Below, piece after piece: positions 10,551 through 34,806 of a stretch of DNA of 46,165 nucleotides. Location of the stretch: assembly GCA_032358255.1 (NCBI GenBank), contig JAULBX010026419.1, positions 2,116 to 48,280 of the forward strand. Reading direction: 5' to 3'. The stretch comes from Heterotrichella gracilis (lineage: Eukaryota > Sar > Xanthophyceae > Tribonematales > Xanthonemataceae). The translations under genes were made by a program, and so were the position numbers. How positions within the stretch are numbered: position 1 is the stretch's first letter; the number at the start of each line of letters is the position of its first letter. Below the pieces are notes generated by a model, which had not been told where the DNA came from, made no database searches, and saw only the letters and a list, made by a program, of their open reading frames with translations.

Positions 10551-13500
10551 CTACACCACCGCCAGCTCCGCCGCCCCCTTCACCCCCTTGAGCGTGGGTG
10601 CAGCCGCCACCACCACCGCCGCGCACTGCCTCCCGGACAGGGTGGCCCCCTCCATGGAGTCAATATAGTCCTGCTTGGTGTAGGACCCCGCCAGGAAGAA
10701 ATTGGGCACGGGGGTCTTCTGGTCGGGCCTATATGGGTCCATGCCGGGGGCCTCCCGGTACAGGCTCTGCGCGATCTTGACAATGGAGTGCCACTGGAGG
10801 GTGAGGTCCTTGGCTGAGGGGAATAGCCGCCGCACCTGGAACGGGTGTGAGGGGTGCATCTGAGTGTGTGTGGGTATGTGTGTTGGTGGTGATGGTGGTG
10901 TAGGGGGAGGTTGAGCAGGCACAGTGTCAGGAGTGGTGTGGTGTCTCACCATATGACACTGCTCCACCCCTTCAGCAGAAAAACCCCGATCCTCATGTAC
11001 CCAATGCACTAACCCATTCACAAGCGAATGACCATTTTCCGATTACCGCCTCATCCACCTAGGCCGCAATCTCCTCATTGGGCAGCGGCATGCAGCATTT
11101 TGCGGCCAAGGTGGACGAGATTTACTGCACTTTTAGTACACCCTTTTCATTTCATGTATTCACTCCCCGTATTCCTTCCCCATTCACCTGCTCGTCCACC
11201 TTGGCGGCGATCTCCTCATTGGGCAGCGGCATGTAGGGGTCGGCGGGCGTGAGCACGCACTGCATCAGCGACCCCTGGCCCTCGCGGTAGTAGTCCACCG
11301 GTGACGTCAGCGCCAGGTCAGCAAAGCACGAGAAGTCTGCGTCGGCGCTGTACAGCAGGTTGTCCAGGCCAGCAGCCTTGCCCATCTGGCGCATCTTGAC
11401 GGGGTCCTGGAGGGCAGGGTTAGGGTTTCATTCAGGGGTTTATTTAAGGTTTCAAGATCTAGCGCTTAGGGTTTTAGCTTCAGTCAATGGGTGACGTCAG
11501 CGCCAGGTCAGCAAAGCACGAGAAGTCTGCGTCGGCACTGTACAGCAGGTTGTCCAGCCCCGCAGCCTTGCCCATCTGGCGCATCTTGGCGGGGTCCTGG
11601 GGGATTGGGGTTACATAATTTTATACAGGGGTTTATTCAGGGTTTTAGCGTTGGAAGGTTGGGGGTTGTCATGGGTTCAGGGCTTTATGCAGGGTGTCAG
11701 GGTATGTAGGGGCAGGGGTTAGGGTTTCATCCAGGGTTTCAGGATCTAGCGCTTAGGGTTTTAGCGTCCAAAGGTTGCGGGTTAATCAACGAGCCAGGTC
11801 AGCGCCAAGTCAGCAAAGCAGGAGAATCAGATTGCCCAGGCCCAATTGAAAAGAGCAGATTGTCCAGGCACCCCCTACCTGCATTTCCGTGACCCATCCG
11901 TCATAGCGCAGCTGCACCGTGATGACTGGCACCCCCACCAGCTGGAACACGTTGTCAAACAGCTTCATGTTGCGCCACGCCTGGAAAGAAGGGGGAGAGG
12001 GGGCCATGGGCGTGGGTATGGCGGCACGGGTGTGTTTGCAAAAGGACAGAGGGTGATCATATTATCACTTCGCAGGGCAGGGCAGCGTGCATGGGGGAAT
12101 GCAGCGACCGAGGTATGTTAAGCATCCGCACATACCACACGCACATGTAAGCTCACTGATTATATGACCCCGTACCCTCACTCAAAACCCTACCGCACCT
12201 GTGGTATAAGCCGCTTTGCCCCCGGCACATCCAGAACGACCACATGTATGTCTACCTTAACCACCATCTCCTAGTGTGCCCTAGCCATGCGCAGGCCACA
12301 CACCCTTTACCCTAGATCACACCCTAGCCCTGCACCCCTACATGCGTGAGGAGATGCATCCCACACCCCCCAACCCACGCTTTCCACCTAAAATAGTATT
12401 TATTTGTGAATGAGGACTCAGCACCGCACCTGTGGTATGAGCCGCTTTGCCCCTGGTACATCCAGCGCCGCTATGTAGGCATCTGCCTTGACCACCATCT
12501 CCTCGTTTGCCCTCGCCATGCGCAGCCCAGACACCACGGGGACCCCGTCGGGCCCCATGTCGTATAATATCTCCCTGGGATGGAGCAAGGGGGGAAATGG
12601 GGTTGGTGGCGTGGGGAAGGGTGGGGGGTTTGTGCAGCGTACATGTGGAGAGAACCCCATGACATATACCACCCCATGCCCACATGGAACCTCCACCCCC
12701 AGGCCCTTGATGTAATCCAAGTTTGGCGTCAACGGGCGCTTGGCGACCTTTACCCCACGCCCTCCATCCATCACCCACCAAGTTACAGACCCATGTCCCC
12801 ACCGTACTCCACACCCTCGCCCTTCCTTTACCCCACCCGCTTTCATCCCATTCCCATCCCTCACCTGCACCCCGTGCGCACATGGAACCTGCCCCCCCTG
12901 GCCTCAATGTAATCCGTGATCGGCTTCAGCAACCGCTCCGCGGGCGACCCATCCAGCATGCGCAGCGAACTCGCGTCGGTCTTGGTTGCAAAGAACTGGA
13001 AAATCGACAGCATGCAGCGCGCGGAGATGTCGTTGCAGTCCAGGAAGCCAAGCGCGTAGGCTGCGTGAGGGGTGGGGGCGATGGTTGGGAAGGGAATAAG
13101 GTGGGTGGGTGGGGTGGTGGTGCAGTGGTACAATTCATAGAAATGTGAGATTGGCGGCATGCAGCGACATGTCAAACAAGGAGGCTGCCAGTGCCACTCT
13201 GGCAGTGTGGGGGGTTAATACAACATTCGTGAGGTACAATGAGAATTCGGTCTCTAAATTTCAAACTCTTTTAGTTGAAAGGTTCTGCGACATCCGTAAT
13301 ATGCGCACCAACTGGGTCCCACATGCGGTCGATTGATCCCTGCGACCCCCCGTGGCTCTTGAACCAGTCCGTGAAGCTGATGTTGTCCAGCGCCCGGATG
13401 TCCCTCATGCCCCCCTCTGGGTCGAACAGCGCGCGCACCACAGGGGAGGTACCCAGCGCCAGGGAGTTGGCTGCCTTGTCCCAGGTGGACAACTGGGGGG

Positions 13501-15595
13501 TGGTGAAGAAGGCCTTCAAGCCTGGGGAGGGAAGGGGAGGCGTGCATGGGTGGGTGGGGATGCGGAGATGTGTTGTCTGTGGCGTAGGTCAGGATTGTTT
13601 GATTCAAAATTTGACCTCGACTTTTTCCATTATACAAGATTTTTATACAAGATTTTATTTGACAGTCACATTCAGGGAGCCAACCCGGGCTCGCGAGACT
13701 GTTGGAGGCGCTTAAAGAAGTCACCCCGCTCACTAAAAACAATAATTTGATAAATCATATGATTGATTAAGGATAATTTTTTTTGTGGCAATGTCGTGCA
13801 TTGAGTTGCGGGGCATGAAGGCCACACATTGTTGCCTGGCTTGTGTTTGCAGCCCAGCCCAAACACATGCTGGGCTGCAGGTGCCCTTATTGCATGCCCT
13901 AATCCCCTAATACTGGTTCACAAATCTGTTACCCAACTTCGCTTTCCCTACCACAACCCGATTTATCACGACTTGCCACTCCGCCTCCCCCACTCCGCCT
14001 CCGCCCCTCCCCCCCCCTCCAGCCGCCACCTACCGTGGAATGGCGCCCCTATGCGGGTTTCCCCCAGGAAGAACCTGAAGTCCAGCTCGCGTATGTCTCC
14101 CCCCTTGTTCACAAAGGTGTGGGTGTGGTCCTTAAGCAGGAGGTTGTCAAGCACGCCACACTTGGCCATCAGCCTGCATACACAAAAAGATATTAATAAC
14201 TACGGCCAGAAGCCTGCACACTCCACACCACATATCGCACCACATCACACGCCACCTCAAGACACGGCACCTTAGCCTGGGCACGAGGGCTGTCAGGATG
14301 CAAAGGAGCGTGGGGGAGCCTGAGCAGCTGTGTAGTACATGCCGTGGTTGCTGTAAGTGTGTGGAGGAGCTGACAGCAGCACTGCAGAGGGCTTAGCAGC
14401 CACGTGTCCTCACTCCAGTCGGAGCAAGTTGGTGCTCAGGCGCACTCTAAGTAACTAGCAGCAGCATATTTGCTGTACCTGAACAGGTTGAAGTAGCACC
14501 CAAAGAACACGTGCAGCCCCATCTCGATGTGGTTCCCGTCCTTGTCCTTGTAGGAGGCAACCTTGCCACCGATGAAGGGCCGGGACTCGTAGATGTCCAC
14601 CTCATAGCCCTGCTCAATGAGCTCCACTGCGGTGGAGAGCCCGGACAGCCCGCTGCCAATGATGGCCACCTTGAGCTTTGGCGCTCCCTGCGCAGGATGA
14701 GGGTATGCTGGGAACAGCTACGAGTGTTCAAATGTCTGCAAGCACGAGCCTTGGTGCCCCATGCACAGTGTGCTACAAGTGGCGGTGGAATCCCTAGGGA
14801 GTATGGAACTAGGAGTATGAGCCTGTGGCTCAGGTCACACCCTGACCTACAACTCAGCCAATAATTGCAACTTTGAGCTTTGGCGCTCCCTGCACAGATA
14901 AGGGACATGCTGCCAGCCAGGGCTACAGCGGTGTCGGGTATAAGACTGTGCAAAAATAATTTAACCGCCAATAGTGACACCTTAAGATCTGGTGCTTCTG
15001 AGTAGATGACATTGTCCTAAACCAGTGAGTGGTGCTTTGCAGGCCATGGCCACCCCTCTCCCCTATCAGTGGTGCAAACCATGCCGGTGTGCATGCACGT
15101 ACTTGTTTGGGGGCTGGCAGCTCATCAGGGTACAGCGACTTGAGAGGAGCATCTCCTGTGACCTTGCCTCCAGACACAACAGCTGCTGCTGCTTGCACAA
15201 CCCCTGCAGGATCACCAGTCGAGGTGGGCCACTGGTGCACACTGGGCCATGCACATTGTGAGTTGCGTTCGATGTAAGGCACAAAGCGGCTGCTTTGCTC
15301 GCCAAAGCAGAATGAAGGGCAAGTTGGGTACAATGCGCGGTTGAAGGTGGTTCAATTGAGTTGTTAAAGGTCGAGAGTGGTGGGTGGTTATCTGGCCCAA
15401 CCCATCCCACCACCAAGGGTACATCCCACCACCGTCAACTGCTTGAGGAGCGTACCCACCTCTGCGACAGTGAAGACGAAGTTCTCTTTGAGAAGAGCGT
15501 GAGGTGAAGGCTACCGGCCTCGGTACAAAGCTGGATGTAAGCTTGCTGGGACCCACAACGGTGGTCCCGGCAGAATGAGACATGACACCCTGCAT
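10551..15595 (-). CDS. ZDS: Zeta-carotene desaturase, plastid
   Basis: ZDS desaturates zeta-carotene to neurosporene and lycopene in plastids, with FAD and plastoquinone. Exons (minus strand): about 15,595-15,457 (transit peptide), 15,294-15,105, 14,687-14,478, 14,173-14,034, 13,522-13,308, 13,057-12,892, 12,571-12,429, 11,980-11,877, 11,402-11,190 and 10,837-10,551 (stop TAG 10,551-10,553). The FAD-binding motif [16 protein letters not shown] is followed by [10 protein letters not shown]. Then come the ZDS-type [42 protein letters not shown] and [14 protein letters not shown], and finally [20 protein letters not shown] near the C-terminus. The HVFFGCY and [10 protein letters not shown] motifs favour ZDS over phytoene desaturase. 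ATG 15,595 is the first ATG in a Ser/Arg-rich leader; ATG 15,583 is an alternative. Joining exons 1 and 2 requires donor GG|gtacgc. Several introns contain partial copies of adjacent exons. Confidence 0.95.
11060..11118 (-). pseudogene. Partial copy of the 3' edge of the ZDS 11,402-11,190 exon
   Basis: The bases around 11,066-11,092 (ctcctcattgggcagcggca) repeat 11,211-11,233 of the real exon, then a scrambled gcggccaaggtggacgag follows. It lies in the last ZDS intron and has no complete splice frame. Confidence 0.7.
11490..11602 (-). repeat. Tandem copy of the 5' half of a ZDS exon
   Basis: Positions 11,490-11,602 duplicate 11,300-11,412 at nearly every base, including the acceptor before [18 protein letters not shown]. 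The offset is 190 bases, and the adjoining intron with its telomere-like ttagggttt runs is copied too. The duplicate lacks the exon's 3' half and donor, and reads into an in-frame TGA after LALTSPID. If its acceptor were used it would truncate the enzyme. A third, decayed copy lies at about 11,795-11,876. Confidence 0.85.
12193..12305 (-). pseudogene. Decayed copy of the 3' part of a ZDS exon
   Basis: This matches about 12,424-12,535, the end of the 12,571-12,429 exon, including its gtgcgg donor. It still encodes [12 protein letters not shown], but an in-frame TAG interrupts it where the real exon has a glutamate codon. It lies in the following intron. Confidence 0.8.
12671..12750 (-). pseudogene. 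Decayed copy of the 3' part of the ZDS 13,057-12,892 exon
   Basis: The segment resembles about 12,877-12,945. On the minus strand it reads [18 protein letters not shown] where the real exon reads [18 protein letters not shown]. It lies in the next intron downstream and lost the reading-frame constraint some time ago. Confidence 0.7.
14848..14907 (-). pseudogene. Decoy copy of the 5' edge of the ZDS FAD-binding exon
   Basis: A copy of the acceptor and first codons ([11 protein letters not shown]) lies about 200 bases upstream of the true exon start at 14,687. It keeps a cag acceptor but reaches a stop codon right after AIIG. Use of this site would abort the FAD-binding motif. Confidence 0.75.
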
Positions 15596-16588
15596 TGCTG
15601 TGCGTCTAGCAGCCACAACTGGTGTGTCCAAGAACCCACTTAACTTCCAGTGACGTTTTCAACGTTATATGGTCCAAGCTACCAAAGAACGAGGAGTCCA
15701 ACCCCACAAGCAGAGTGACGTTGGCACAGTGGCCGCACAGTGTGGTGTGCAAGTGAGTCGCTGGAATGGCAGTGCGAGAGCCAGCAGTTTGCCGAGAAGT
15801 TGCTTGCAGCGCAGACATACCACAACTAGCTTGTGGTGTGGTGTGAGGCTTTCGTGTTTACAGCTGCAGCTAGCTGCCTACTTTTTTCCCGCGCTTGCAG
15901 CGGTAAAGGATGAGGCTGGCAGCCACTCATATTTGCAGACATCCAACCTGAACCCTAGGATAGGGTTCTACACCTGATTTGCTGGGCACACATTAAGAAC
16001 TAGAAAGGAGTGTGTGTCAATTCGGGAAATTCAGCAAGTAAGAAGTGTGAACCAAATGAAAACAAACAACTTATCATGTGAATAGCTGGGGCAGATAATT
16101 GTCAGACCTACAACTGAAAAGTTTCAGGGGCACGTGCCACAACGGCTCTACCCCAGGATTGTCAAGCATCACGTATCAATACATTTTCATATTGACCGAC
16201 TGTCATACAGTCGCAAGTCAGTGTACAGGTGGTATCATGCATTAGCTGAGGATGCACCCACATGGCTCTGGAGCACACATAATGCACAGGCCAAGCCTTA
16301 CCCCTCCAGGGCGATTTTGCCGGGTCAGTCAATACATCGCGCCAAGGCCTTGCAAATCCCCTTATATCACGTGCTTTGAACAACTGTGGAAAGAGAAAAA
16401 AAAGCCAGAGATAGTGAACCTCAAAGATGGCCAGAAAGTGCGCCCTTGCCAGCCCCAATCACATGGCTAGGGGTTTCCGCGACAAGGTACACGCCCACAA
16501 CCACCAAGCCACCAGGCTGGTGATAGGCTGGGAAAGCCTTGTCTGCCACTCTCAAGTCCACTAGGGGTGGATCAGGCATCCATCTTGC
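15596..16588. other. ZDS upstream region and SMCHD1-like 3' flank
   Basis: About 1 kb lies between the ZDS ATG and the stop codon of the upstream SMCHD1-like gene on the same strand. It must hold the ZDS promoter and 5' leader and the 3' untranslated region of the larger gene. I see no clear TATA box, known light-response element or coding exon. Confidence 0.4.
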
Positions 16589-19500
16589 CTATCCGCCGCC
16601 GCTTCTGGCGCCCATTCTCGACTCCCTCCCCCCCCCCACCATCACCACCTCCTGGGCCCACCAGGTGGGGCGAGCGGGCGTTGGTGCGGGTGGTGGGGGA
16701 CAGCACGTCCTGCCCACCAGCCTCCTCCGGCTCTGGCACCCCCCTGCGGCGGGTGTTGCGCTGTGGCTGTGGCTCTGCCTCTGGCGGTGCAGTCCCCGAC
16801 TGGCTGCCTGTAAGGGGTGGCAGGGAGTGAAAAAGGGTTTATCATGCAGGCGCACATGATCCACGCACCGGTGCAGCACAGTGCACTTGCTGGCTGATCC
16901 CCACAATACGACAAACCCCAAAGGGCACTCTCCAGTTGGCCCAGATACCCTGGTTCAGAAACCCTATGCGTCCCTTGTCTTCCCGGCCTGAATAAAACAC
17001 GCATCTCCACCCTCCCCCCTATCCCCACCCTCCCCTGGATCCCCACCCCCGTACCTTGTGCACCCAGCCTCAGCTCCAGCGCATGCTCCAGCTGGCGCTT
17101 CTCCTTCTTCAGCTCCTCCAGGGCCTGCGGGGAGTCACCAGCAGCATACGCACCCTGGGCCGCGGCAAGCGCTGCGCGGCACCGATCCCGCTCTCCCAGT
17201 GCCTCGATCAGTTGGCCCAGGATGACCAGATTGTGGGTGGCGGCCTGGTGGGCTGGCGCCTGGGGTGGGGGGTGGGCGCATGGTGAGAAAAAGGCCGGGT
17301 GGTGGTGGTGGGTGGGTAGGGATTGGGGTTGCACAAGGGGAGGTCAGCGATTGTGAGGATGGTGGAGGGTATAATTACTCACACACTTGGTGGGCCTAGA
17401 CTGTTGGGGGGGGGGTGCTTCAACATGGCAGTACAGAGCTACATGCAGAAAATGGTGGAGGTGAAAGGTGTGCATGGGCCCCCTTGAAAGGTAATAGATA
17501 ACAATAGTTTAATAAGAAAAGGCCTTTGTGGCCACTGCTTGTATAGTTCTTAATGGTCATGTTTTTTTTTAGTATGGGGATGGATTTGTTTTGGTATAAG
17601 CCCCCAAAATGGGTTTGATTTGGTATAAGCACTGCACCAAAGGACGAGCTTGGTATATAAACCAATATTTTTGGTATAAGCCCAAAATTGCTATAAGGTT
17701 ACAACTAAATGTAATCCCTGCCCAGCATTTAAAGACCCTAACCATTTGGAACGACAAAAAGCCTTCAGTGGTCAATTAGCCAGGAAAATTCACTAGAAAA
17801 CCCTGCAAGACACTCTAAATAACCCTAACCCGCAGGCAGTAATCCTACAAGGGTTTATATGCCAGGAAAAATCACTACTGAATCCTGCAGGGCACACTAA
17901 ATATTCCTAGACCCGCCTGCAGGCAAATACCGTAACCACGGTGACATAGAAACCCTACAAGGGCTTTATAGGGTTCATTCCTGACCAGACAACGCGCTGA
18001 GTAGGGTTTATGTTGAGTTGGCCATGTCCTAAAGTTAGGGTTCTGAAACCACATACCCAAATTGGCCTTATTTGTGGCCCTATACCACAACTGATCCTTC
18101 AAGGTGGGGCTATACTAGTATAGACCCTATCTGCACCCTTATACCAAAACAAACCCACTTGGCACCACTATACTAAAACAAAACCAACCGCATACCAAAA
18201 TTATATTATTACCGTTCTTAATTCCTAGCACTGTTAATAATACAATTCCTGCATGTAATGCTTCTGAATCGTCTCCTTGCTTGCTGTAATGGCAGCAGGG
18301 ATGTTAAGGCTAGGGACAGGCTCCTTACCACAAAACCCCTTCCACCCACCCACCCCTGCGCCCCTTCCCTACCTCCTCCGCCACAGTGGCCCCCATGCGC
18401 ACGGGCGCCTGGTCCACGTCCACCACCCTGAAGCTTGCCCCCATCACGCTACCTCGGCTGCTCAGCTTCTTGCCATCCAGGGTCAGCACATCGCCGATGT
18501 TGGTTCGCAGGACCTGCGCAAGGGGAATGGCCAATGAATGCATGCGTCAGATCGTATTACAACAAACATCAATACCAGCATGGACCATGGTTGTTTAATT
18601 ATTACATGCATTTCGACAGACAGCCGTACTGGCGCCAAACAGTCCTGGCACTTCATAGCATTTGATCTTGCGCAATCCAAGGTATGGCACGGCATTATTA
18701 TAGGGGGCTGAGAGGTGTACATAAAGCCCCCATATGGATGTTGTGCACCATATTGAAAGGGGTGTATACAGGGCTGTTTTTGAAGGACATGCATGCATGG
18801 CGTGTGGCAACTGATCAATGGATGCACTCCACCCAGTGCCTCACCACATCCATTATCCTGCACACATTTGTGCTGATTTGCTCCGAAGAGTCTGCAAGGG
18901 TTAGGGGGTTAGGGTTTGTTGCCAGCCCAGCACCCACCTGCACCATGAACTCCCGATAGTCCTGCGCCTGGTCCAGCGTCTCAAACACCATGGTGGCCCC
19001 CATCTGGGGCTGGAAAAGCGCTGCGCGATCCCCAGCCTTCACTGGCCGCACCAGGTTCACTGCGTAGCCCAGGCACCCAGGCGGCCATTGGTGCTCCTCC
19101 ACCGCCAGGTTGCCTGGGGGCTGCTTGCGTGCCTTGCGCAGGCGTGACATGACTGCGGCGTGCGGCAGCGCGTTGTTGAGGGGGGGATCGGAGCCACTGC
19201 ATGCCGCTGCCATCAGCTGCCTGGCCAGGGGGCTGGCGCCTGCGGCCATGTCGGGGCCGCCCTGCGGGTTCTGGCACCTGCAACAAGGAGCACATTGTGT
19301 GTCATTTGCTGTTGCAAACGTAACTCTTCCCAACCCTGCGTGTCTATGAAGATCCTTGCTGGCAACAAGGACACACCGCAGCACGCATTAAAGACTCCAC
19401 ACAGCAGCGCCCCCCCCACCCTCCCAAGCCCCCGAGATCGCATCTCAGCACAGTTCTTATTACCTTGCTGCCATCAATTATTATTGAAATGATGGACAAA

Positions 19501-22500
19501 GCTACAATACTTTTGTGTTAATGTATACCTATGTAGTATGGTTACCTTGTTACCCTATGTCTCACCTGAGCACGCCGGTCATGGGCAGAATCTCAGGCAT
19601 GGGCAGGTCCTGGCTTTGTATGAGCTGGATGAGGTACTTGAGCGCCTCGCGGTCCTTCACCACCACCACCTTGAGAACGCTGCCGTAGTTGGCAGAGAGC
19701 ATGGTGGCCAGGCGCGCATCGTCCACCGTCATCAGCTGCGCCATCACGCCGATCACATCCTGGCGACCTGCACAGGGGGGGGCGCATGTTGGCACTAGCG
19801 CATTGGCGCACACAGCGTGGCGCACACCCGTAAGATTGCAAGTCAAGGCGATACGAAGAGCAATAGGAATGATTGATGTGTGCACACATTCACCTGGCAG
19901 GCTGGGCACACAAAAGGAGCAAGGCAGATCACATGTGCATCACCCACATGCAGGTCACAAGCTCTGATCCCCACCCATGCACAAGCACTGCGCCATTGCC
20001 AAACCACTGCCCCCAGCTGGAGCAAAATTCCCACCCACCTGTCGCCAGGCACCTCGCAATGGCGGTGGTGGCCGACCCCGGCCCACCGAACCGCGGTTCC
20101 CGCACGTTTGTGCCCGCCTGCACCCCCTGATCCACCTGCTGCTGCACCCTGGCCAGCATGTCCTGGGCCTCAGCCACGGTCCCGGGCTTGTCGTCTGCAC
20201 GCAAGGCGGGGTGGATGGGCGGGTGAAGAGGGCACACGTAGGGCACAATAAGGGTGGTGAGGTGTGGGGGTGCGATGAGGGCTACTGTGTGGGTGTCTGC
20301 CTAGGCGCGTGGGCAGCAGGGCCTGTGATGGGGTTGATGAGGGTGTACCCGCTATGCCCATGACTAGCTGGAGAATCCGAGACACTGTGGAGATGGAGGG
20401 TGATTCTCACATTCGCCACCCATGTGCAGCCATGTGGTGCCCCATCCCCACCCCATCCCTACCCCCGCGCCCCTACCTAGCCTGAGCGCCTTGTGCCGCT
20501 CCCCCACCACCCTGTCCGCCTTGGCCACCTCCTTCTGCGCATCCTTCACCGCCTTGTGCAGCGCCTTCTTGGTGTCCTCCAGCCGCTTCTGCTTCGCCAT
20601 GTTGCGGTTGCGCCGCTGCGTGTACTCCGCCACCTCCCGGGTGCGCAGCACGTTGTCGCAGAACTGCAGGCCGCACTCCCAGGTGGGCAGCCAGAGCGAG
20701 GGGCGTGGGCCGGGCAGGCGCGCCTCGATGACCAGCGAGCAGGTGATGACGGAGGTCTGCGCGGCGTCGATGTCCACCTTGCCTGTGAGGACATGGGGAT
20801 GCTGATCACGGCCTTGTTGGGCCGATACATGAAGCACATGTACACCTATTACTGCACCCATGTGATGCATGTAAATTACCTAAGTAAATAACTAACTAAC
20901 TAACTGCACCCATATATTCATATAGACTATGCATATAAGTGCATTAATGTGACGCCAGTTACTGGAGGGCCACACAGTCACACCTCTACATGCGCCGCTG
21001 CTATATCTGCTTAGCGCCGTGAAGCCTGAACAGCGCTCTCATGGGTGATCCAGGTTTATCTACCTTTTTCTTTATTTTACTAATTGAAAGTTAGTAATTA
21101 TAAAGTTAGTGATTATAAAATACATTCTAAAGCAAATTAGTGGATACTCAATGCATAAAAAATTTATGCAACCCCATGCTCACTTGGGGTTGAGTGAGCA
21201 GAGCGTTTTTCCCCCCACCTCCCCCCCCCTGCCTGGGCCCACTCCATCCCACCCACCCACCTGAGCCCTGCGCCACCACCACGTCGCCCAGGAACACCCT
21301 CCCTTTTGCGTCCGTCACAAACTCACGTGCCCCCTCCAGGTCAGGCAGGCGGCACCCAGCGGCCTCCTGCTCGCTGCCCTCTGCCCACGCCACCATCAGG
21401 CGCAGCGGCACCCCCTCCAGGTGCACGTCATTGCCAAATTCATCGCACAGCTGGGCGGCAGCCTGGGCAAAAATGCGGCGCTCCTGGAGATCCTGCAGGG
21501 CACCGATGGTCGTTTTGGGTCATCTGGACTTGATGGTGGGCTGGAAAATTGTGCGGCATGCATGGGCGTGCACAGGGGCTGGATTTCATATCCCGTTGAC
21601 CACCACAAGGGTGCATGCAGGCTGTGCGAAGATGCGCCGTCCTACATGTCAGATGGCAGTGGCTGTGGCAGGCTGGCCGGGCATGGGTGTGTACAATGGG
21701 CTAGATTTTTCATCCCAATCGGTATTTTGCAATCAGCTACATCACAGTCCCACCATTGACCCCCTCCCCGCACCAGATCTCTCATTACACCACAACACCC
21801 TCTCCTTCCACCATGCCCTTCCCCTTGAGACCACCCCTTCACGCACCTCCCCGTTTGACACCGACACCTCCTCCGGCGCCTCCTCGCACCCCAGCACCAC
21901 CGACACCTGCACAGGCGGGCCCACAGCCACCGTCAGCGTCTCTGCCCCGCTGCGCACAGTGGTCTGGGCCCTGCTTAGCGACTTGACCAGCTCGGGCCGG
22001 CTCTCGGTGTACTCCGCAGTGACTGAGTAGGGGCCCGACACGGTGAGGGGGTCAGTGGTGAAGGTGAAGGTGCGGGCGGCGGCAGCGGAGGGGGCTGCAG
22101 GCAGCGTGGGCTTGACAAAGATGGAGTCCTCGCGGCCACCACCTGCAGGTGCCATGGGTGCAGGGGTCAGAAGAGGCGTGGCCAGCAAGTTGCGCGCTGA
22201 GCAAAAGGTGGGGTGCAATGCCACGCAATTGCCGCGCCATGGCACAACAATGCGCACCGCAGCTATGGGAAGGGAGACTAACCTGGCAAAAGTCATGTGC
22301 CTTCCTTCCCTGCTATTTTCCGATTAGCAAAAGTTTACCCACCTTCCGGCAGTAGGCGCAGCGCCAGTCCCTCCCATGCCGCCTGCGGCAGCCCGTTGCC
22401 GTCCTCCGTGTCCACCACCACCACGCACGTGCCTGAGGTGTTGACGGGCAAGGGCTGCGCCAAGCTGGCTGTGTCCACGCGCAGCCCCGTCACGATATTG

Positions 22501-25500
22501 GCGGCCTTGAGGCACACGGGCAGCAGCGCGTCGGGCAGCGCCATCTGCAGGGAAATGGGGAACACCAGGGTTTTAGGGTCCAGGATGGCCAGTCTGGGGT
22601 CTAGAGTTTTAGGGTGACAGTGTGCAGGAAATATGAGAAGGGCTCATGCTGATTTTCACTGTTCAGTGTCTTAGGGTTGGGGGAGTCCATGCCCTGGAGA
22701 GTGGGTAGACAGTCCTGAAATGTGCCTCACCCCCCTTCCTGCTGATTGTTCTTTGCCCCCGCCACATTGAGAAAAAGCTCTGAATAAGCAGGCCTTCTAG
22801 TACAGTCAGCTGCCTCACTCACCTTCCTGCTGTTTGTCTTCACGCACACCTCATACGTGCCCGGGTGGTCTGCGGTCAGCCGCACATTGCTGAAAGTGGC
22901 CTGCCCCTGCTTCAGCACCGCCTTGTTCCCGCCCGCCGCCTGCACCTTGGCCGCCCGCCCCGACCCATCACCTGCCAGCGCGCAGTTGTGCAGCACCAGC
23001 TCGCACTTGGCATCCGCTCCAGGGTTGGCGGTGGGGTTCTCCCAGGCGTCCAGGGCCTGCACCTTGAGGTGCGGGATTGCGCTCAATGTGCTGCATTCCT
23101 GGGTGCCCAGGCCCATGAACCTCAGCTCGTGGGGCGGCCCCGCCTGGAGGTCGATCTCCACCGAGTCCTCCTGTAGGAGCGACTCCTTGTCCTCCCCTCC
23201 CGAGTCCTTGGCTGTGATGTTCACCTTGCCTGCCACGCCTCCCAGGCACATTTCAAACTTGTACACCAGATCCCCATCCTGCAAGATTGGACGCATGTAG
23301 TGAGCGCACAAGCGGTATGTCCGACAGCAAAATCCTACACCCTACACAACCCAAACCAGGAGGCAATCCATCCGCGGCATGCCAGCAGCTCAGGTGCTAG
23401 CAGCCCAGGCACCGACGACTGACAGGTGGGTTCAGGGTTTAGGGTTTTTGCTGCCGCTCACAACACACCTGGTGCACCTCACACGTATACCACACAGATG
23501 GCTCAGGAAAAACTCGCATGTTGACCTACCAAACTCCAATCCTACCACACGGCCTGCCTCCCTTCCTCCTCCCACTCCCCCCGCCCCCCCCACCACACAC
23601 CACCCATCCCCACAGCCCTATTCCTCCTGCCTCCCCCACACACACCGACACTGGTCACCACCAATGCCTCACCTGATCATACCAGCCCTCCTTCCACTCG
23701 GTTTGGTTGAACTGGAGCCCGTTCCCCCCCAGCAGCAGGGTTGGTAGTGGCATGTTGGGCTGCTGCGCAGGTCGGCATGGGTTGTCGTGTGTGTCCCTGG
23801 CCGTGATGTCCAGAGTGAAGAACTCACCGCACAGCACCTGACCCAGAGCGCCACCAGCTGCACAGCAAATTTAAAATTTTAGAGAATTCTTATTTCAAAA
23901 GAACACAACAATAAAATTATTATTCAGATTAATTGTAACAGTCTAATGAGCCCGGGTTGGCTCCCTCATGACTGTCTCAAAAACATTTCCTGTAAATTCC
24001 TGTATTTTACACAACTTTATTATTTGATGCCAGCAAGGACACCAATCGGTTTGGAGGAGGGATACCTTGCCATGAGCTGATTGGCATTGCCAATCACCTG
24101 TGCAATCAGGTGAGATACAGAACAACGGTATTCAAGGTGATATCAGCACTCTGCCTGCTTGCAAAAAAGCCGAGCGCCGCTGCGCCTCTTCGGCAATCGG
24201 CGCCCTCCCTGTTGAACATTGCAGTGTATCTACCAGCCCTTGCTGAACCCCATCCCCATCCCCATCCACCTTACCCCCTCCAGCCAACCCCGCCTCCCCC
24301 ACACCGACCCACCTTCATGCAGCTCCAGCGTCCACTTCACTGGGTCTGCAGGCACCACCACCATCTGCACCAGCGCCTCCAGGCGGATGCGGGTGCCGAT
24401 GACGTCCAACCGCACCCAGCGGGGCTCATCCTCGCCCACAGCCGTGGGGGCACTGATGGAAAGCACCGCCGGGGCCTCCCCGCCCATCTCAACTTTCTCG
24501 AATTTCTTGCCCTTTTTGGACCCGGTGGTCAGCTGCAGCTCGGTCTGCAGGGCGGGGGGAGAATTGAGTGGAGTGGGTGGCGCATGAGGCTGTGTCTAAT
24601 TGGCCAGCTACCAGCCACAAGATACGGTAGCATCTACTCTGTGATGTATTTTTGTCCTAATAAACTTTCACTTCAATTTTTTCCATTTGAGAATAAAAAA
24701 ATGCTGTGCTTACTTCACTACCGTATATTTAATTTGATAACCTATTCAATTGAAAAGGCTGAGTATTTAAATTACATGCAGCTCCAGTCTGGCTCATGGC
24801 AATCCCTGCCTGCCACATGGGTACTCACCGATAGCTTGCCCATGACTGGGGTTGCCAGCCGCCGCTGGGCCTCGTCCACGCACAGGCACTGCAGCTCCAG
24901 CCTGGCGCCAGCTGGCACCTCGCCCATCTCATACACTGTCACCTGCTCACCACCTTCCTCCTCCAATACCTGCAGCATTATCACTCAAAGTACTATACCT
25001 GCATTACATAACCGCACAGCACCGCACGGGTGAGACATCCAAACACCACCCTCAGTGCATGCATGTGTGAGCTGTATAAGATTGCAAAAGCAACATATAA
25101 CATTATGGAACCGGTCAATGGCAAGGAGCACAGCACCAGTGTCCGGCTGCCCACTCCGCACACCCATGCATTGCATGCTGCAGCCGCACACCTGTCTCCT
25201 GTCCACCTCCCCCCTTCCCACCCCACCTCCACCTCCACATACCTTAGAGGACAGCTCCTGGCCATTCACCATCAGGATCAGCGCCGCTGGCGCGCAGCTT
25301 GGCTCCACAACCAGGTGGTGCACCAGGGTGGGCGCGGGGCCAGCCTCTTCCAGGGCGGCCAGGCAGCCAGCTGCGTTGTCAGGCGCCGCGCGCTGTAGCT
25401 CCATGCGGACGGGCAGGGCGGCGTCCAGGGGCTGGCCGGGGACCCGCTGCGTGACGTGGCCTGCAGGGGGAGGCAACAGCGCCTTGCTCAAACAGTCAAA

Positions 25501-28500
25501 TAGGAGGGGTTGTAAATGACACAGAAGGAGGGGCAGGGGGGGGGTGTCAGTGGAGAAAATAGCGCCTTGTTAGAAAGGAGGGGGGTGTAGCCAGAAGGAG
25601 AAGGAGCAGGGTGGGCTTAGCCGAGAAAGTTGAGACGGGTGTGGGGCGAGCAACCTGCCCATGCATGCACACAAGACAACAATACTCTTATTACCCCAGG
25701 CCAGTTCATACGACTGACCCACAAAGGAATAACACCCTGCTTCGTTTACCCCTCGTATTTCCCTGAATGATTGCAGTGTACGCAAAGTGGCCATGCATGC
25801 ATGCAGCCCCCACCTGCCACCCGTGCCACGCCCGCGTTGTCAAACACGCAGTCCTGGAAAGGCGGGGTGAGCGCGTCGCAGTCCAGGTGCAGGGTGAAGG
25901 ACACAAGGCTGCTGCTTGGCACGGAGGGGTTGCCCCACGCATCAAAGGCGGCAACGCTGAACGGTGGGAGGGTGTCGCCGCTGGGGATGCAGGCGGGGGG
26001 TGCGCTGGTGGGCAGCTGAGTGAGCTGCAGATCCTCGGTCTGTGCCAAATGGAGAACACTTGGGATGGGCACATGGCAAGAAACTGGGAAGAGGAGCAGG
26101 GCATGTAATCTCCACTGGTGGATGCATCCCTTGCTTTCGGTTACTTCAAGTAATATTTTTTTTCTCCTATTATCTTTTTATCTGGGGCACCCACATAACT
26201 GGAATTAGTAACTCCTCCAACAGGTGCTCCAGTGTTCACACATGCGCACTGTCATATGTCCCCCTGCCGAACCCGCACCTTTGGCTCCCAAGGGTGGCCC
26301 GGCAGCAGCCGCATGCTGCATGGCACCCCCGGCCGCAGCTTGAGCGGCAGCTCCTGCGGGGGGTGGTCGCCCACCGTCACCCTCAGCCACACCGCAGCCA
26401 CCAGCTGGTCCTGGCCAGGCTCCTGCTGCTGGGCAAGGGGGGTGCCGGAGGGGGTGGGGGGCGGGCGGAAGAGGGCCATGCCGGCTGGGGGGTGGCCAGG
26501 GGCAGGGTCTCTGCCCAGGATGCGCAGGTTGGTGAGGGTGATAGGGCTGCTGGCACTGGCTCGGTCCTGGCAGCGCAGGCAGGGAACGTGTTAGGTGGGT
26601 GGGGATGGGTGGCAGCACAGGGCTGGGTGATGCACCCTCTGCATGGGCTGCTCAAGTGTACTGCTGGAACAAATGACTGCGCATCTGGGTGTCTGATGGA
26701 TGTAACCGCTGGATGTACCGCTGGATGACTGATGGATGCATGTAGCTCATGCATGCCATGCACAGAGTGGGCAGAGTGCGCTGAGCTCTCTCACCAGATG
26801 ACACAACTCCCTGTAAGATGGATGAGCAGGTTTGTGCAGATGTAATCAGAGCTACTGGATAGGCAAGTGCGGCAACCAAATGCCCCCCACGCACCACTTT
26901 GCACTTCACCCGCAGCTCCTGCACCTTCTCCCTTGTGTCCTCCCCCGTGCGCACCCACACTGACACCGACACATGTGGCAGATCCCCACGGGGCCACGCC
27001 ACCCCATTGCCATACTCATCCTTTTGCACCAGCTGCAGTTGGGGCAGGTGCTCACCCAGCATGGTCTCATTGCCGATGGCCAGTGCGCTGCCCTCACCCT
27101 GGGGTCACAAAGCAGCTATGTAGTCCTCTGGATCAACATGTAGTGACGTTTTTGATGCATGCCATGCAGGGTGGGTTTCAAGGCACAGGTCATACCAGGT
27201 CAAGAGTTGCAGCCGTTCCTTGGCTAGGTGTGTGCAGAAGTGCAGCACTGGCCAGCAGTGCCCAACAGAAGGGAAATTGTGTACCGTATGGCAACGGAAG
27301 CAAAATGAATCAGAGATGTGAGTGGCTGACAAATGCGCCACTTTCACCCTTACTGAGCACATGTGACCACCAACCTGTGCTGTGATGATGTATGTGACAG
27401 GTTACATTGAATTAACACAGAAATAAAATATACAAAATAAAGGCTTCAAATGCAAGCCTGAAAATTCCATATTTGAATAGATAATTGCAGCATCTCCACA
27501 CCTGGATTTTGAAGCCCACAGGCACCGCCGGCTCCACCACCACCTTGAATGACGCCTGGATGTGCACGCCACCCTGGGCATACTCCGCCAGCTGGTACTG
27601 CACCAGGTAGCTGCCAACCTCCTGCATCTGCTCAGTGATGGCGTCAAAGTGGAACACGTTCTGCGGGGTCTGGGGGCTGCGGTTGATGGTGCTATCCACG
27701 GGGCGGCCTACAGTGGAACGGGTGAGTGAGTGGGTGGGTGCCAGCAGGGAGTGGGGAAGTAAGTTGAGGGCAGGTGCGAGAGGAACAGGTGTGCGGGCGC
27801 CACCAGGTGCATGCAGCTGACTTGCCATGGACTGCATGATGCGCCAATAGAAAACTGGCAATGCTTTTAGGAGTAGTCGATTGTGATCCACAGCAGTTAT
27901 AAGACCGGTCATGGTTATGCAACATAATGACTTCCCACGTGTGCCAGGACAGGTTTGGCTGCAGGGGACACATCTACAGTGTGGCCATGAATCGACCTCA
28001 ACTGGTAGGCACATGCACATAGATGCACAGGAACCATTGAGAGTGGCATACAGGGGGGTAATGAGGAAATCATCGAGTGACTGGAGCTGCGAAGTGTACC
28101 TTTAAGCGTGAGCTTGCGATCCTGCCCTGCGCCTGCCCCCTTGTTGGTACCCTTTGACCGCGTCGCCTGCATGCACACACTCGCACCAGTTACAACAACG
28201 CCAGGCATTGGAGTCAAGGCAGGATGCCTTCCGCCACCCATCCACCTACACTGATCAATATGCAGGGTTAGCCGCCTTTACGGCTACTTGCACTAGTAAA
28301 ATGCGCATAAATTGCAGGTGCTTCAGTGCAGATACTCCATCGCACCAGCAGCAGTCCCCCAAGGACCCACGTGCACCACCCATGTGACCGTGCGCCTCTC
28401 ACCTTTCCCTCCCCTTCCAGCGTGATATCCTCCCCTGTCTCACTTGGTGCCACCAGGCGCCACACCCTGCGGGTGACAGTCAGCGCCTGGCGCCTGCCGG

Positions 28501-31500
28501 TGGGCCCCTCCTCCAGTGCGCGGGTGACCTTCTTCTTGTTGCCATCCATGACCATCACATCAACAGGCGGGAAGAGATCCCCAGCCACCAGGTGCAAGGG
28601 TTTGCCTAATGAGTAGCGGTCAACCCCGGGTTGCTCCATGTGGATGGAGCAGGGCAGCTGCAGCGGGGTGTGGGTGCAGCGGGTTGGCAATGGATTTGCT
28701 ACGCAAGGTACACTGATGTGCACGGTACTGCCTTGGTGAAGTTGTTCACATCATAGATGCGCAGAGTGTGACGGGTGGGAGCAACAGAGTGGAGAAAGGC
28801 ACAGCCGAGCGCTCTGCGGTGTGCCTGCGTCAGATGTCAATGCACATGTGATTTAATTGATAACATGCAGCAATACAAATAGTCAGCCAGCCTTGCACAA
28901 GCTTGCGCCACCCACCACCCACCACTTACCTTGGTCTTCTCCCTTTCCATGTGCGCATCCATCTCGTCCAGAGCAGGCTTCCCCTCCAGGCGCCTCAGGG
29001 AAAAGGTGCGCTCTTTGCCCTCCCCATACACATCGGTAGGGAGCAACTGGACAACCACCTTGCCATTCGAGTAGGCGCCATCCTCGCGTACCACCTGTGG
29101 CGGGGTTAGCATGGTCGTCGGGGGCAATGGTGTCAGGCTGACACCCTCAGACCCACCTAAATGAGTGCACGCATAGGCTAATCCATGCATTCCAGCAACG
29201 CCCCTATCCCATTTGCACCCCCCCACATTGTACCCACCCATGTTCCTCTATTGTTTCAATCCAAAAGGCAAAGCTGCACTGTAATGCTCCCCCCTCTCCC
29301 ACCCAAGATCATGGGATCATCCCTCCGCCACCACCCGCCAGTGCCCCTCCATCCACCCACCTTGTTCACTAAGAACCGCAGCACCTGGCCCATCAGCACC
29401 GGCTTGCTCAGCAGCTTCACAGTGTCGCCCTGCTGCACAGTCAGGGGCAGGCCCTGGCTGTGCGCAGCGATGACCACCCGCTGGAACACGGTCACATCCT
29501 CCTTCAGCTTGAGGCGGTGCACCTGCTGCTCAGCGGGCTCAGCGATGCCCTCAAAGCGTAGCGTCTTGTCGAGCTTCTGGTGCGCGCGCAGCAGCCAGGT
29601 CTTGAAGGTGCGGTCCATGTTGCGGTCGCCTGCAGCGGGGACTGGCGTGGGGTGGGTGCGTGGCAGGGGTCAACCACTGGTGTGGGATGCATAATGACAA
29701 CACCATGCATGCCACAGGCGTTCAAGCTTGAAAGGAGTAGGGTCGCTGCAGCGGAGGCGCAGGGCGGACATGTGGCAGGGGACAAGCACTTGTGGCCAAG
29801 CTCCCCTCCAACCCCTGGCAAGACAGGACCACCTACACATAATGCACCAGGCCCACACATGAGCTCAACTACAGGTAGAGGGTATGTGGGCTTTGAGGGG
29901 CAGCGTGGCCATCCCCACCCACCCACCTGGCATGGCAGTCTGCAGCAGCATGTCCAGGGGCTCCCTGAAGTTGAGCTTGTTGCGCGTAACGCGGAACTGC
30001 GGGCCCAGGAACAGCGCCCCATGCAGGCGCCCAAACACCTCGTCAGGCAGCTGGTCCTTGGCGGCGGCTGGGCGCTTGCCCCCGGGGTTGCGCACCGCCT
30101 CCACAAAGGGGAGGGTCTCCACACGCGTGCCGGGGATGAGGCGGCCCTGCCAGAAGACCTCAAACATGGCGCTGGAGCCCTGGCGCTGGCCTGCAGGGGG
30201 GTTCATCAAATTGGGGGAATTACAGTTGGCCATGCATTAGGCTCTCAACCCCCTGCGATAAGCGCACATCCAGGGCTGCCAAGGGTCTTTCTGTATTGTA
30301 CAGCACTTCCCGCCACCAGCCATGCATGCTTATGGGGATGCGCATGCGTCTAAAGAGGGCTGACGGAGCTCGACATTATCGGGAGTATAAGCGTTTAGAC
30401 AGCAATTTCTATGTGTTGCAATGCACCTGGCATAGATGGCAGGCAATGGCAGGCACCCGAAGGTTTTACATGGCCTTGAAGAGAATTTGCAAGTGCCACA
30501 TGCAGCGCAGCATCCAGAGTCATCACACACATCGCACCTGACTTTGTCTGCTCCTCGTCGTCCGAGTCGCTGTCCCTTGAATCCTGGGAGTTGATGCGAT
30601 CAGCTAGTCGGGTTGGGTGCAGCGACAGCTACACACACACAACAGCAGTGGTTAAGGAACCATGATGGCACAATTAATACAATATTACACAGGGCATGGG
30701 CCAGCACACCCCAATACAGAAGCACATGTGAAGCAGTGGCAAATGAGTCAAGCGCAATGTGCAAAGCTGCATGGCGAAGGTGCTCATGGCAGCAGTGGTG
30801 AAAGTCGCCATTGCATTATCATAAATTTCAAAAGCAGTTCAAATATAGGAGAATCACGATGCCGTGCAAGCTGTATCCCTGAGCACACTTGGCCATGCCA
30901 CTGCACCCACGTGTGTGCAAGGCGAGCATACCTGGGTGCCCTGGGGCTGCTGTGTCAGGCCCTTGCCATGTTGCGTGGCCCCGCCTGAGGTGCCCGGCAC
31001 GTGGATGATGAAGGGGTTGTGGACGTCCTCGTGGGGTCTGGTTTCGCAGCCCTTGTCGTAGGGAAAGTAGTGCAGCACACCGGTGACAGGGCCTGGGACG
31101 TACAGTGTGGTAGGAGAGACCATCAGTTGCGAATAAAAAATAACTAATTTTCTGATGAGTTGAGCTGGGCGGGAGAAAAATAACGATGATAATGAATCCT
31201 TTATATTTCTCTTCTTTATCAGAAATCATTAACATTTTATATTTAACATGCATTTAAAATATCATCAAATCATATGATATTTAACATGCACTTAAATCAT
31301 TTGATTATATCGAAGTCCTCCTGAAACAGGTGCACTAAAGTCTCCTGACCCAGGACATCCTAAAGTCCTCCTGTATAACAACCAGTGGCATTGTGGCCAA
31401 TGCCTTGATTCAAGATTGGTGCACCCACCTCTGTTCGGCACATTTAGCGTGAACTTCAACTCCTCTCGCTGCGCCTTGAGGTAGCGGGACTCCATGTCGT

Positions 31501-34500
31501 CATCCACCTGCCCACAACACACAGTCAGTGAGCTCACATATGAGTGTGTCGCAAATCTGTGAGACAGAGGAAGTGAATACGTGCCACCTTCTTACCAATG
31601 CCATGCCAGTCTTGCGCATGGGGAAGTTACCATATCAGTACATACATGAACATGGTGCAAGCAAGCAAGGGAGCATTAAACAGTTCGCTATCACTTGTGC
31701 TCATCATCACTTTTTAACACAAAGAGCACTGGGACAGCTACATCCTCACTTGCGACCAAGTTTGCTGTATAATGGGTGTCAAGCTTGCACAATAAATCGT
31801 TGCAAGGCGTGCACCTCGCTCAAGTTCTGACTCCACACCAAGCGCTCGCCTACATAGTGCTGCACCAAAATCTGGGGCCGTTGCTGGTTGCCAGGCAGGC
31901 CCTCATCCTGTGGATTGGTGCCACATTGTCAAGCTGTGTGTGCAACGAAAGTAGAAAGACAACAAACTGCCAGAAATGCCAGAAATTTCACATGAATATG
32001 TTTGAGTAAGAACATTTTGCTTATTGTCTAAGATTGTTGCAAGCACAAATATAGGAAAAATACGCAGTTTGGTGGAATGGCAGGTGCTGCCATGCATTCC
32101 CCTCAGTCAAAAGTGGGGGGGCATATGGTGGCCGCTAGTGCAAACACAACGGCTTGAAGAAGCTTTGTCCATGATGTGCATCATGACAATTGTTGTTTGC
32201 ATCTCCTGTTCTCACCTCTATGCCCTCCTTTGCGCCATGGACCCCATGCAGGTAGTAGTGGTACAGGTGCGCCAGCTCGCGGCACACCTGCTTGCCTAGC
32301 TCCTCATCCACAATCTGCCTCAGCGTGTTTGGGACCAGGGACCCCACCGTGACCCTGCATCAGGCACAGCAGCAGCGTCCACCAATTGCACTGATGCCGA
32401 GGCGATGCTCTAGGGCATGTATGCATGGCTAGTTGGCCTCAACAGCAATAGTCAGGCGCTATTGCCTAGCTGTCAACGTACTTGTCCAGTTTTGAATGGC
32501 ATTTAGTGCTGCCATTAAATGAATAATTAAATACTATTGACCAGGTATGAGAGCTAATTAGGGGGAAAGCATGCACTCGGTTCATCTGGCTGTACAAAGG
32601 TGGCGTCCATTACACCCCAGCACCAGCACCACTCCCCTCTCTCACCTGGTAAAGCTTTCCCCGGCGTGCACCTGGGCAAGGATGTCTTTCGCCATGAGCG
32701 GGTCCGCCTCCTGCTGCACCCATTGGCGAGTCAAGCCAAACGGGCGCTCCATGTTCTCAATGCTTGAGGTATTCCCGGGGAAGCGCTTGGTGATGTCACC
32801 AATGTAGACATCTTCCTGGTGGGTTAGGGGGTGAAGGAGTGAAGGAATGTGCCATTTGATAAAAGAGGTTTTCTGTTGCAGCCAAAATTATTGGAAGCGG
32901 CGAGTGGGTGGAAACAGAGTGGAACAAAAAGTATTTTACTTGGCAGTGTATGGCAGGGACAAAACGCCATGCATCAGTCAATATGGTTGTGCACTCAAAA
33001 ATGGAATGGGGATGGGGGTGATGGGGAAGCCAGATTCTGCCTGATACTGTTTAGACATGCCTTTTTGCACCAAATCGCACATGCACATCCTTGCACCACG
33101 CTTCCCTCATGAGGCAGTGTCGAAGGTGACTTGAGCGCACCATGCACCTTTTAAATGAGGTGCTGGGTGCAGCATGGAGGCCGCCATGACCCCCAATCGA
33201 AACACCAACCACACCACTCAAGGGCTTGCCACCAGCGATATTGGCATTCACAGCCAGCTGCAGATACCTTCCCAGCCGATGTAGCACCTCCGCCTGCATA
33301 CCTCCCCCTCCCCCACACCCATGCAGCGCACCTTGCGGGTCTTGTACCGCTCGTCCATCTCATTGGCATCCAGGCACAGCTCATTCACCACCAGCCCTTT
33401 GGCGCTTGGATCCGGCTTAGCGGATTTGGTGACCACCTTCATGGAGCGACCCATGAAGAAGCCAGCGTTCTTTGATCCAACCTGTACAATGCAGGCACGG
33501 TCACAAGGACTGGCTTGGTTCATTGATACGGAACATTCAGGCCCAAGGCTTGCCTAGTCAGACCTGAGTAGTGTAGATGGTTCATGATTGCATGGCTCCT
33601 GGGCAGTACTGCCAGGGGATGACATGGCTTGTCCTTTGCATTCATTTCCATGCCTTGCAGGCACAGCTTTTTGCCGCCGCTAGGCAGATGATGGCGCCCA
33701 TTGCACGAGTGCACAGATAAGCCATTTCGTCTCGGAAAGTGCGCGGCTAGTGATGATTGCAGCAAGGTGAATGTGCATTTGATGGGTTCTTGCACCTAAC
33801 AGCCTCAACCTACCCCAAAGAAGGAGATATCCCCGCCCAGGAACCGCTCATTGGCCTCGCTACCCCTTGCAGGCTCGGGCTCCTTGGGCTGCAGGCCCCG
33901 GTCCTCCATCGACAGGTTCAGCACCGCCCAGTCATTGAGCTCCTTTGTGTTCATGCCACACCCATTGTCGGACACAGACACCAAGCCAACGTGCTCGTCT
34001 CGGAACTTTGTGGTCACAAACGTCACCACAATGGTGCGGGGCCTGTCGGTGTTGTTCTGGGTGGCCTTGATGGAGTTGTCTATGAGCTCAGCCACAGCAA
34101 ATGGGAATGGGTCCCGGTCCTGCAGCACGGGTGGTGCAGGACTATGAAACAAGATGGTGGGAGGTTGGCAGCCTGTGGAGCTGCAGGCGGTATCGGTGCC
34201 TACCTGTGCAGCGTGGTACTCATACTCTCCTGCCATGGTCATCGTCTTTGGGTGAGGAGCAAAGCTGATGCGCTCCTGCGAGCAGGAGTGAAGGGCTTAC
34301 AGGGTGGCAACAGCAGGCTCAGTGATATGTGTGCAGCACGTGAGAAGTGGCTGCTGCATTCCTTTCTGTACCTTGACAGGGTCATCGTTTCGGCAGAGGA
34401 CAAGCATATCGCCGTCTTTGAGACTAGCAAAGGCAGCGCTGCACACATAGCACGTGAGTGAGCACACTGCCACAACCACACCACTGCTCACAAGCAAACA

Positions 34501-34806
34501 TATAAAAATAAACAACAAGGACGTACTCTGTCAGTATCTCCTTCGAACCGATTGAGAGCGCAAACTCCTGTGGCAGGGGGGACGCAAAGGTTGTCAAGCA
34601 TAGGACCAGGTGAAGCTCCATTGTCATGCAGGGCACAGGGACAGACAAGGTACCTCAACAGCAGTCTGCTCAAAGGCTCTGCACACGCCAGCCCGAAACT
34701 GCTCGAAGGTTCTATGCTCAAGGCTGATAGTTTGAGTCCTTGGCCCTTCTTCCCTTGACCAACGGACTGTCACAGTCCCTGCAGGGCGCGGGGTCCATTG
34801 TGGCAT
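16589..34806 (-). CDS. SMCHD1/GMI1-like non-canonical SMC protein with GHKL ATPase and hinge
   Basis: About 36 exons join in consistent phase into roughly 2,300 residues (human SMCHD1 is about 2,005). ATG 34,806 (MPQWTPRPAG) opens exon 34,806-34,654; stop is TAG 16,589-16,591. Order: a ubiquitin-like N-terminus (FRAGVCRAFEQTAVE, LKDGDMLVLC); a GHKL ATPase (AGEYEYHAAQ, FAVAELIDNSIKAT, SDNGCGM, GGDISFFG); and a transducer-like part (RELAHLYHYYLHG; VFWQGRLIP; FLGPQFRVTRNKLNFREPL). A long, probably beta-rich middle spans 29.1-21.2 kb. A pre-hinge coiled coil (20,784-20,476), the hinge (19,770-18,376), a post-hinge helix (17,260-17,055) and a Gly/Pro-rich tail follow. In mammals SMCHD1 compacts and silences chromatin (inactive X, D4Z4); in plants GMI1 acts in recombinational repair and hinge-only DMS3 in RNA-directed DNA methylation. 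The algal role is likely nuclear chromatin silencing or repair (inference). MORC was considered, but the hinge and the linear match along the whole length favour SMCHD1. Confidence 0.92.
17581..18190. mobile_element. Candidate fold-back/MITE-like element in an SMCHD1-like intron
   Basis: TTGGTATAAGC-type motifs occur several times at 17,591-17,680 and in inverted form (ttataccaaaacaaaccca) at about 18,139-18,190. The 19-base arms 17,610-17,628 and 18,139-18,157 match at 18 positions. The interior is AT-rich and non-coding, with an imperfect tandem repeat of about 82-110 bases (about 17,779-17,860 and 17,861-17,970). The whole sits in the 1.1-kb intron between the last hinge exon and the post-hinge helix exon. 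No clear target-site duplication was found by eye. Confidence 0.5.
18376..19770 (-). other. SMC-type hinge exons of the SMCHD1-like gene
   Basis: Three exons encode the hinge: about 19,770-19,567 (DVIGVMAQLMTVDDARLATM), 19,277-18,939 (GATMVFETLDQAQDYREFM) and 18,513-18,376 (VLTLDGKKLSSRGSVMG). These parallel the SMCHD1 hinge, including its [20 protein letters not shown] start and its LLTRDGDRIRSNGKFGG end. The hinge of SMCHD1 dimerises and binds nucleic acid. An insert rich in basic and proline residues lies in the second exon (about 19,200-19,070). Confidence 0.9.
33331..34275 (-). other. GHKL ATPase module exons of the SMCHD1-like gene
   Basis: Three exons (about 34,275-34,204, 34,118-33,815 and 33,481-33,331) carry the Bergerat-fold motifs. 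AELIDNSIKA supplies the catalytic glutamate and the Mg-binding asparagine, SDNGCGM is the DxGxG box, and GGDISFFG followed by VGSKNAGFFMG forms the lid glycine motif. ELNDWAVLNLS corresponds to the segment between motifs in SMCHD1. No key residue is missing, so ATP binding and hydrolysis are plausible. Confidence 0.9.

Follow-up and report, generated by a model that had tools for sequence, protein, structure and literature searches.

A predicted SMCHD1/GMI1-type gene encoding GHKL ATPase, S5 and SMC hinge domains in a green alga

The SMCHD1/GMI1-type locus and its gene model

The window analyzed in this work is a stretch of 46,165 nucleotides that forms part of contig C391 in an assembly of 68.5 Mb and 903 contigs. 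Its minus strand was predicted to carry an SMCHD1/GMI1-type gene that starts with an ATG at 34806, reaches its stop codon at 16572, and comprises, in the spliced model obtained with our own script, 37 exons, 7155 nt, and 2384 codons with a single terminal stop. An earlier sequence-only reading had placed the gene at 16589 to 34806; its start is the ATG of the model, and its other boundary is close to the modeled 3' end. This 3' end, as well as several to many of the middle exon borders, is uncertain. The predicted parts of the gene, with the evidence for each, are the following.

16572..34806, minus strand: whole predicted SMCHD1/GMI1-type gene (script gene model, 37 exons, 2384 codons, shuffle comparison)
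34372..34806, minus strand: exons 1-3, N-terminal region putatively corresponding to the ubiquitin-like part of SMCHD1, residues 1-82 (6mw7 alignment from residue 30)
33302..34275, minus strand: exons 4-6, GHKL ATPase core, residues 83-268 (HATPase_c_3 2.5e-10, 6mw7 alignment, motif positions)
29361..32815, minus strand: exons 7-14, rest of the ATPase module and SMCHD1-type S5, the latter at residues 392-591 (PF22899 SMCHD1_S5 2.8e-32)
21261..29094, minus strand: exons 15-30, middle region, residues 663-1856 (coding score, in-phase splice sites)
20039..20782, minus strand: exons 31-32, charged helical stretch ahead of the hinge, residues 1909-1958 and beyond (composition and helix propensity only)
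18373..19767, minus strand: exons 33-35, SMC hinge (SMC_hinge 24.1 bits, 6n64 1.5e-4)
17055..17259, minus strand: exon 36, post-hinge helix, residues 2239-2306 (helix propensity higher than anywhere else in the protein)
16572..16807, minus strand: predicted last exon, basic glycine-rich tail (gene model only)

The model was built with a small splice-aware script that combines codon weights with splice-site weights and takes open frames as its starting point. Exon 1 was placed by hand (open frame with the ATG at 34806), exons 2 and 3 were taken from the loosest script run, and the remainder came from the strictest; a stricter run picked other upstream pieces in place of exons 1-3. The number of exons varied with the intron penalty (102, 58, or 36 in three settings), which affected the small exons. 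The 36 introns have a median length of 294 bases and range from 59 to 1113 bases. All 36 donors are GT, and the acceptors are CAG in 32 cases and TAG in 4, as read by a script that demands AG and strongly favors GT. Coding sequence has a GC content of 0.65, rising to 0.81 at third positions, versus 0.51 in the introns. The best path scored 895 on the minus strand, compared with 69 for the plus strand and between 3 and 15 for all 20 dinucleotide shuffles, a comparison that is biased in favor of the model and not independent of it, as the codon weights were trained on exons picked by eye. The homology evidence obtained by comparing single frames with Pfam and the PDB is independent of the script.

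The next gene downstream of the SMCHD1-type one is an intron-split zeta-carotene desaturase gene (approximately 10555-14687, minus strand; TIGR02732 at 5.9e-249 for a query lacking one duplicated stretch). This gene contains tandem exon copies at 11504-11587 and 11314-11397 of the minus strand, which are 190 bases apart and identical at 81 of 84 coding bases; their likeness fades within some 20-30 bases outside, and they could represent a recent duplication or an alternative-exon pair. The predicted protein upstream of the SMCHD1-type gene possesses a MYND zinc finger (PF01753, 1.7e-7; 39704-39823, minus strand), the rest of its model being poor. None of ten open frames outside the SMCHD1-type gene matched a Pfam family at E<=0.1, and spliced models of the neighboring genes did better. 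In addition, short interstitial runs of, or near to, the plant-type telomere repeat TTTAGGG/AAACCCT are present in the window at 2155-2193, 42427-42462, 42668-42708, and 44942-45073.

ATPase, S5 and hinge domains

In a Pfam scan of 10 individual frames of the gene, 3 matched relevant families. The single ATPase frame matched HATPase_c_3 at 1.4e-7 and HATPase_c with 26.8 bits, and in the PDB it matched the SMCHD1 chain 6mw7 at 7e-15; the open frame with exon 29927-30190 matched SMCHD1_S5 at 5.5e-18, whereas the single hinge frame reached 21.3 bits for SMC_hinge, below the cut-off of 22.5. The sequence-only reading had suggested HMM searches for HATPase and the SMC hinge, and on the spliced model these returned both domains: HATPase_c_3 improved to 2.5e-10, and SMC_hinge (PF06470) reached 24.1 bits versus the cut-off of 22.5, a narrow margin, over profile positions 2-85 of 116. 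SMCHD1_S5 (PF22899) rose to 2.8e-32 and was covered in full (profile positions 1-168 of 168). Since the HATPase_c_3, SMCHD1_S5, and SMC_hinge scores all rise on splicing, the exon joins at the ATPase, S5, and hinge are supported; HATPase_c dropped from 26.8 to 22.6 bits, which is under its cut-off.

When residues 1-600 were compared with the PDB, 6mw7, which we take to be human SMCHD1, was the only sequence found at E<=1 (5.3e-53), in a library that also includes chains of MORC2, 3, and 4. The alignment is collinear in two stretches, residues 30-437 and 472-598, and thus covers the putative ubiquitin-like N terminus from residue 30 only. The GHKL ATPase of the model contains the N, G1, and G2 motifs together with the catalytic glutamate: AELIDNS includes Glu117 at 34087-34089, DNGCGM is found at 33952-33969, and FFGVGSKNAGFF spans exons 5-6. 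Opposite Glu117, the aligned 6mw7 chain carries an alanine, taken here as the E147A substitution at the catalytic glutamate; E147 is named as the catalytic residue of SMCHD1, and the E147A change is described, in PMC4628070.

The hinge match is weaker. The best PDB match of the spliced hinge was 6n64, presumably the mouse SMCHD1 hinge, at 1.5e-4 for the whole sequence, with neither stretch significant by itself; the frame carrying the second half of the hinge gave no PDB chain at E<=1 when used alone. The next-best match was the bacterial SMC 1gxj (1.1e-3); this agrees with PMC4628070, where the hinge of SMCHD1 is described as closer to those of prokaryotic SMC proteins. DMS3 (6ois) matched at E=0.16, which is not significant, with a PPG-x-LG-x-AVN stretch common to both sequences in the alignment. 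The model places 65 residues (2078-2142; 19083-19277 of the window) between the two conserved hinge halves; these could be either a genuine insert or non-coding sequence that the model wrongly retains in an exon.

In the Pfam scan of the whole protein, no domain was recognized in the some 1300 residues between the S5 domain and the hinge. A PDB search with middle residues 601-1543 returned no relevant chain and one irrelevant dehydrogenase match at 0.22. An AlphaFold2 prediction for the contiguous exon 22823-23278 had a mean pLDDT of 30.8 and was discarded. The frame holding exon 36, with the post-hinge helix, had no homology match in the Pfam scan.

The sequence-only reading had described one collinear match to SMCHD1 from the ubiquitin-like N terminus to the post-hinge helix. 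Its central claim, an SMCHD1/GMI1-type protein in a green alga, is borne out by the ATPase, SMCHD1-type S5, and hinge, which were found in this order on the minus strand. The end-to-end match was reproduced in part: residues 30-598 align and the hinge does so weakly, whereas the middle is collinear by order, strand, and spacing only, and the terminal helix is seen by propensity, without a homology match.

Relatives in the genome and the algal host

The SMCHD1_S5 profile matched at one place in the genome, namely, the gene on C391, and in none of 14 prokaryote controls. A Morc6_S5 domain was identified on a different contig, C314 (8.3e-18); the matching stretch includes one TAG, which was read through, and so probably crosses an exon border. 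An ATPase exon less than 3 kb away from it matched MORC4, MORC3, and MORC2 chains of the PDB at 6e-10 to 2e-8, and this 108-residue query gave no SMCHD1 chain at E<=1. Judged by these matches, a MORC and an SMCHD1-type protein coexist in the alga and sort to different families in both directions. The spliced hinge, when searched against its own genome, found only the SMCHD1-type gene (all three places on C391), and PF06470 matched 8 places on 6 contigs including C391. No hinge-only, DMS3-like paralog was recognized by the hinge and PF06470 searches, which intron-split or diverged copies would escape. Prokaryote and viral collections contained 21 and 9 pattern stretches, respectively, and 0 relatives by tblastn, a weak result in that single-protein queries reach close relatives only.

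Matches to the DNA_methylase family include exon-sized ones of the C5 DNA methyltransferase type on C272 and C618 (L027-L030), suggesting that the alga may methylate cytosine. Piwi-family exons are present near the ends of C3 and C388 (L033-L037), where they cover complementary parts of the profile and possibly belong to one Argonaute gene broken by the assembly. Long unbroken frames matching the HATPase and DNA methylase families on C1, C111, C639, C760, and C442 (L011, L012, L014, L016, L021, L023-L025) probably come from bacterial contigs mixed into the algal assembly.

Several markers bear on the nature of the host. The chlorophyll a/b-binding family gave 27 genomic matches at E<=1e-10. 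The best locus matched CP26 and related chains of 7pi0, 9is4, and 6kac at 1e-92 to 3e-91, followed by 8bd3 at 5.5e-81 and the CP26 of 5mdx at 1.2e-38; we take 7pi0 and 6kac to be from Dunaliella and Chlamydomonas, 8bd3 from Chlorella, and 5mdx from a land plant. A second chlorophyll-binding locus (L041) matched no PDB chain at 1e-20. Five consecutive copies of TTTAGGG were counted 50 times on one strand and 51 on the other (overlaps included), compared with 0 for the reversed control, and on contigs including C70, C140, C609, and C770 such a run begins inside the first 10 bases. The green-algal-type CP26, the TTTAGGG telomeres, and the neighboring zeta-carotene desaturase support a chlorophyte host.

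Identity, predicted role and known systems

The domain content and order in the model, the intact ATPase motifs, the one genomic match of the SMCHD1-type S5, and the separate MORC gene were all observed directly. It is very likely that the gene is an apparently single-copy ortholog of SMCHD1/GMI1 encoding a GHKL-S5 ATPase at the N terminus, a long middle that would be rod-like by analogy, and a C-terminal hinge, the product most likely acting as a hinge-dimerized, ATP-gated clamp in break repair and/or heterochromatin compaction. It is thus a further example of a known family and not a new kind of protein. Family profiles set it apart from MORC and from canonical SMC proteins, as had been proposed from the sequence: Morc6_S5 is absent among the four Pfam families found at E<=1 on the spliced model, so that a MORC proper was rejected, and a canonical SMC was likewise rejected, with no SMC head family at E<=1 in the same scan. 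Identity with DMS3 was dismissed because the model contains an ATPase, whereas DMS3 is a hinge protein without one; this holds subject to the one-gene reading.

The fusion of ATPase and hinge in one protein is favored by the order and strand of the parts, the short distances between exons, and the precedent of the family. Two adjacent genes on the same strand, one for an N-terminal GHKL-S5 protein and another for a separate DMS3-like hinge protein acting together with it, would resemble the plant situation in that DMS3 is such a hinge-only protein, and on a 300-base grid the script scored two genes at 893.3 with a split near 28200 and at 891.9 with one near 23400, close to the 894.8 for one gene. 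However, these best splits point to no single boundary, no gap between exons from the last S5-side exon (29361) to the hinge (19767) exceeds 478 bases, and SMCHD1 and GMI1 carry both parts in one protein and in the same order, which makes two genes improbable. A MORC-family protein that gained its hinge independently is a distinctly remoter prospect: GHKL and S5 folds are common to MORC and SMCHD1, and a review uses the name MORC broadly enough to include GMI1 and SMCHD1 (PMC5651269), but the S5 domain matches SMCHD1_S5 and not Morc6_S5, and the genome has a separate MORC gene on C314. We give least credence to a decaying or non-expressed copy. Against decay stand the intact ATPase motifs, the GC content of 0.81 at third positions of exons versus 0.51 in introns, and the single genomic place of the S5 domain, while the open in-phase model over 37 exons, built by a script that forbids in-frame stops, is no more than consistent with an intact gene.

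For the single SMCHD1/GMI1-type protein, a mechanism can be proposed from the family. SMCHD1 has been described as a hinge dimer with GHKL-type ATP hydrolysis, and an ATP-gated clamp has been proposed (PMC4628070). Similarly, the algal protein would dimerize through its hinge, ATP binding would bring the paired N-terminal ATPase modules together so that they clamp DNA or chromatin, and hydrolysis would reopen the clamp. Its cellular job would be to repair DNA breaks and/or to compact heterochromatin, as GMI1 and SMCHD1 are known to do. GMI1 is considered the likely Smchd1 ortholog and has been proposed to act in homologous recombination (PMC3707822), and a role of SMCHD1 in double-strand break repair is reported in PMC4004971; repair may for these reasons be the likeliest ancestral job. 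We therefore rank repair or recombination above silencing, giving it about an even chance, with silencing as the main and somewhat less probable alternative. It is rather unlikely that the single protein constitutes the complete ancestral machinery, an ATP-driven hinge clamp sufficient in itself, in which one chain does what angiosperm RNA-directed DNA methylation (RdDM) does with DMS3 and MORC6; the setting for this reading is an alga with C5-DNA-methyltransferase and Argonaute exons in which no hinge-only DMS3 paralog was recognized. If it were true, a role of the family that precedes RdDM and X inactivation would be testable in a simple organism.

The inference that the fusion predates X inactivation and RNA-directed methylation is reasonable, and the algal copy agrees with it, but it is not novel: the ATPase-hinge fusion was presented as an ancient eukaryotic lineage by Iyer et al., 2008 (PMC2292703), a view that the algal gene leaves unchanged. 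The accompanying statement that land plants split these parts between GMI1 and DMS3 does not hold, as Arabidopsis GMI1 already joins a GHKL ATPase to a hinge and DMS3, a hinge protein without the GHKL ATPase, is an extra protein (PMC5651269). Only in angiosperms could DMS3 be distinguished confidently from its SMC relatives, according to PMC4607528, and Chlamydomonas is named in a figure legend on DMS3 collinearity (PMC6624907). No printed report of an algal SMCHD1 was found by literature searches limited to openly licensed PMC text. With this gene, a family known for the most part from mammals and Arabidopsis gains a chlorophyte data point, and in an alga with a single recognized SMCHD1-type S5 gene the ancestral role, repair or silencing, could be probed by gene removal.

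Comparison with known systems places the predicted protein as follows. With canonical SMC1-6 and bacterial SMC it shares the hinge fold (1gxj, 1.1e-3) but gave no match to an SMC head family (Pfam, E<=1). MORC1-4 and plant MORC belong to the same GHKL and S5 ATPase class but have another S5 family, and MORC is a separate gene in the same genome. DMS3, the angiosperm RdDM factor, has in common with it a hinge and the PPG-x-LG-x-AVN stretch of the 6ois alignment; it differs in having no ATPase, and its hinge match (E=0.16) is not significant. The SMCHD1 of animals shares the GHKL ATPase with its catalytic Glu, the SMCHD1-type S5, the long middle, and the C-terminal hinge, whereas the algal model is longer (2384 residues, human SMCHD1 having about 2005), has 65 extra residues between the hinge halves, and has a middle without recognizable homology. 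Arabidopsis GMI1, likened here by its description (PMC5651269), has the same coupling of a hinge to a GHKL ATPase.
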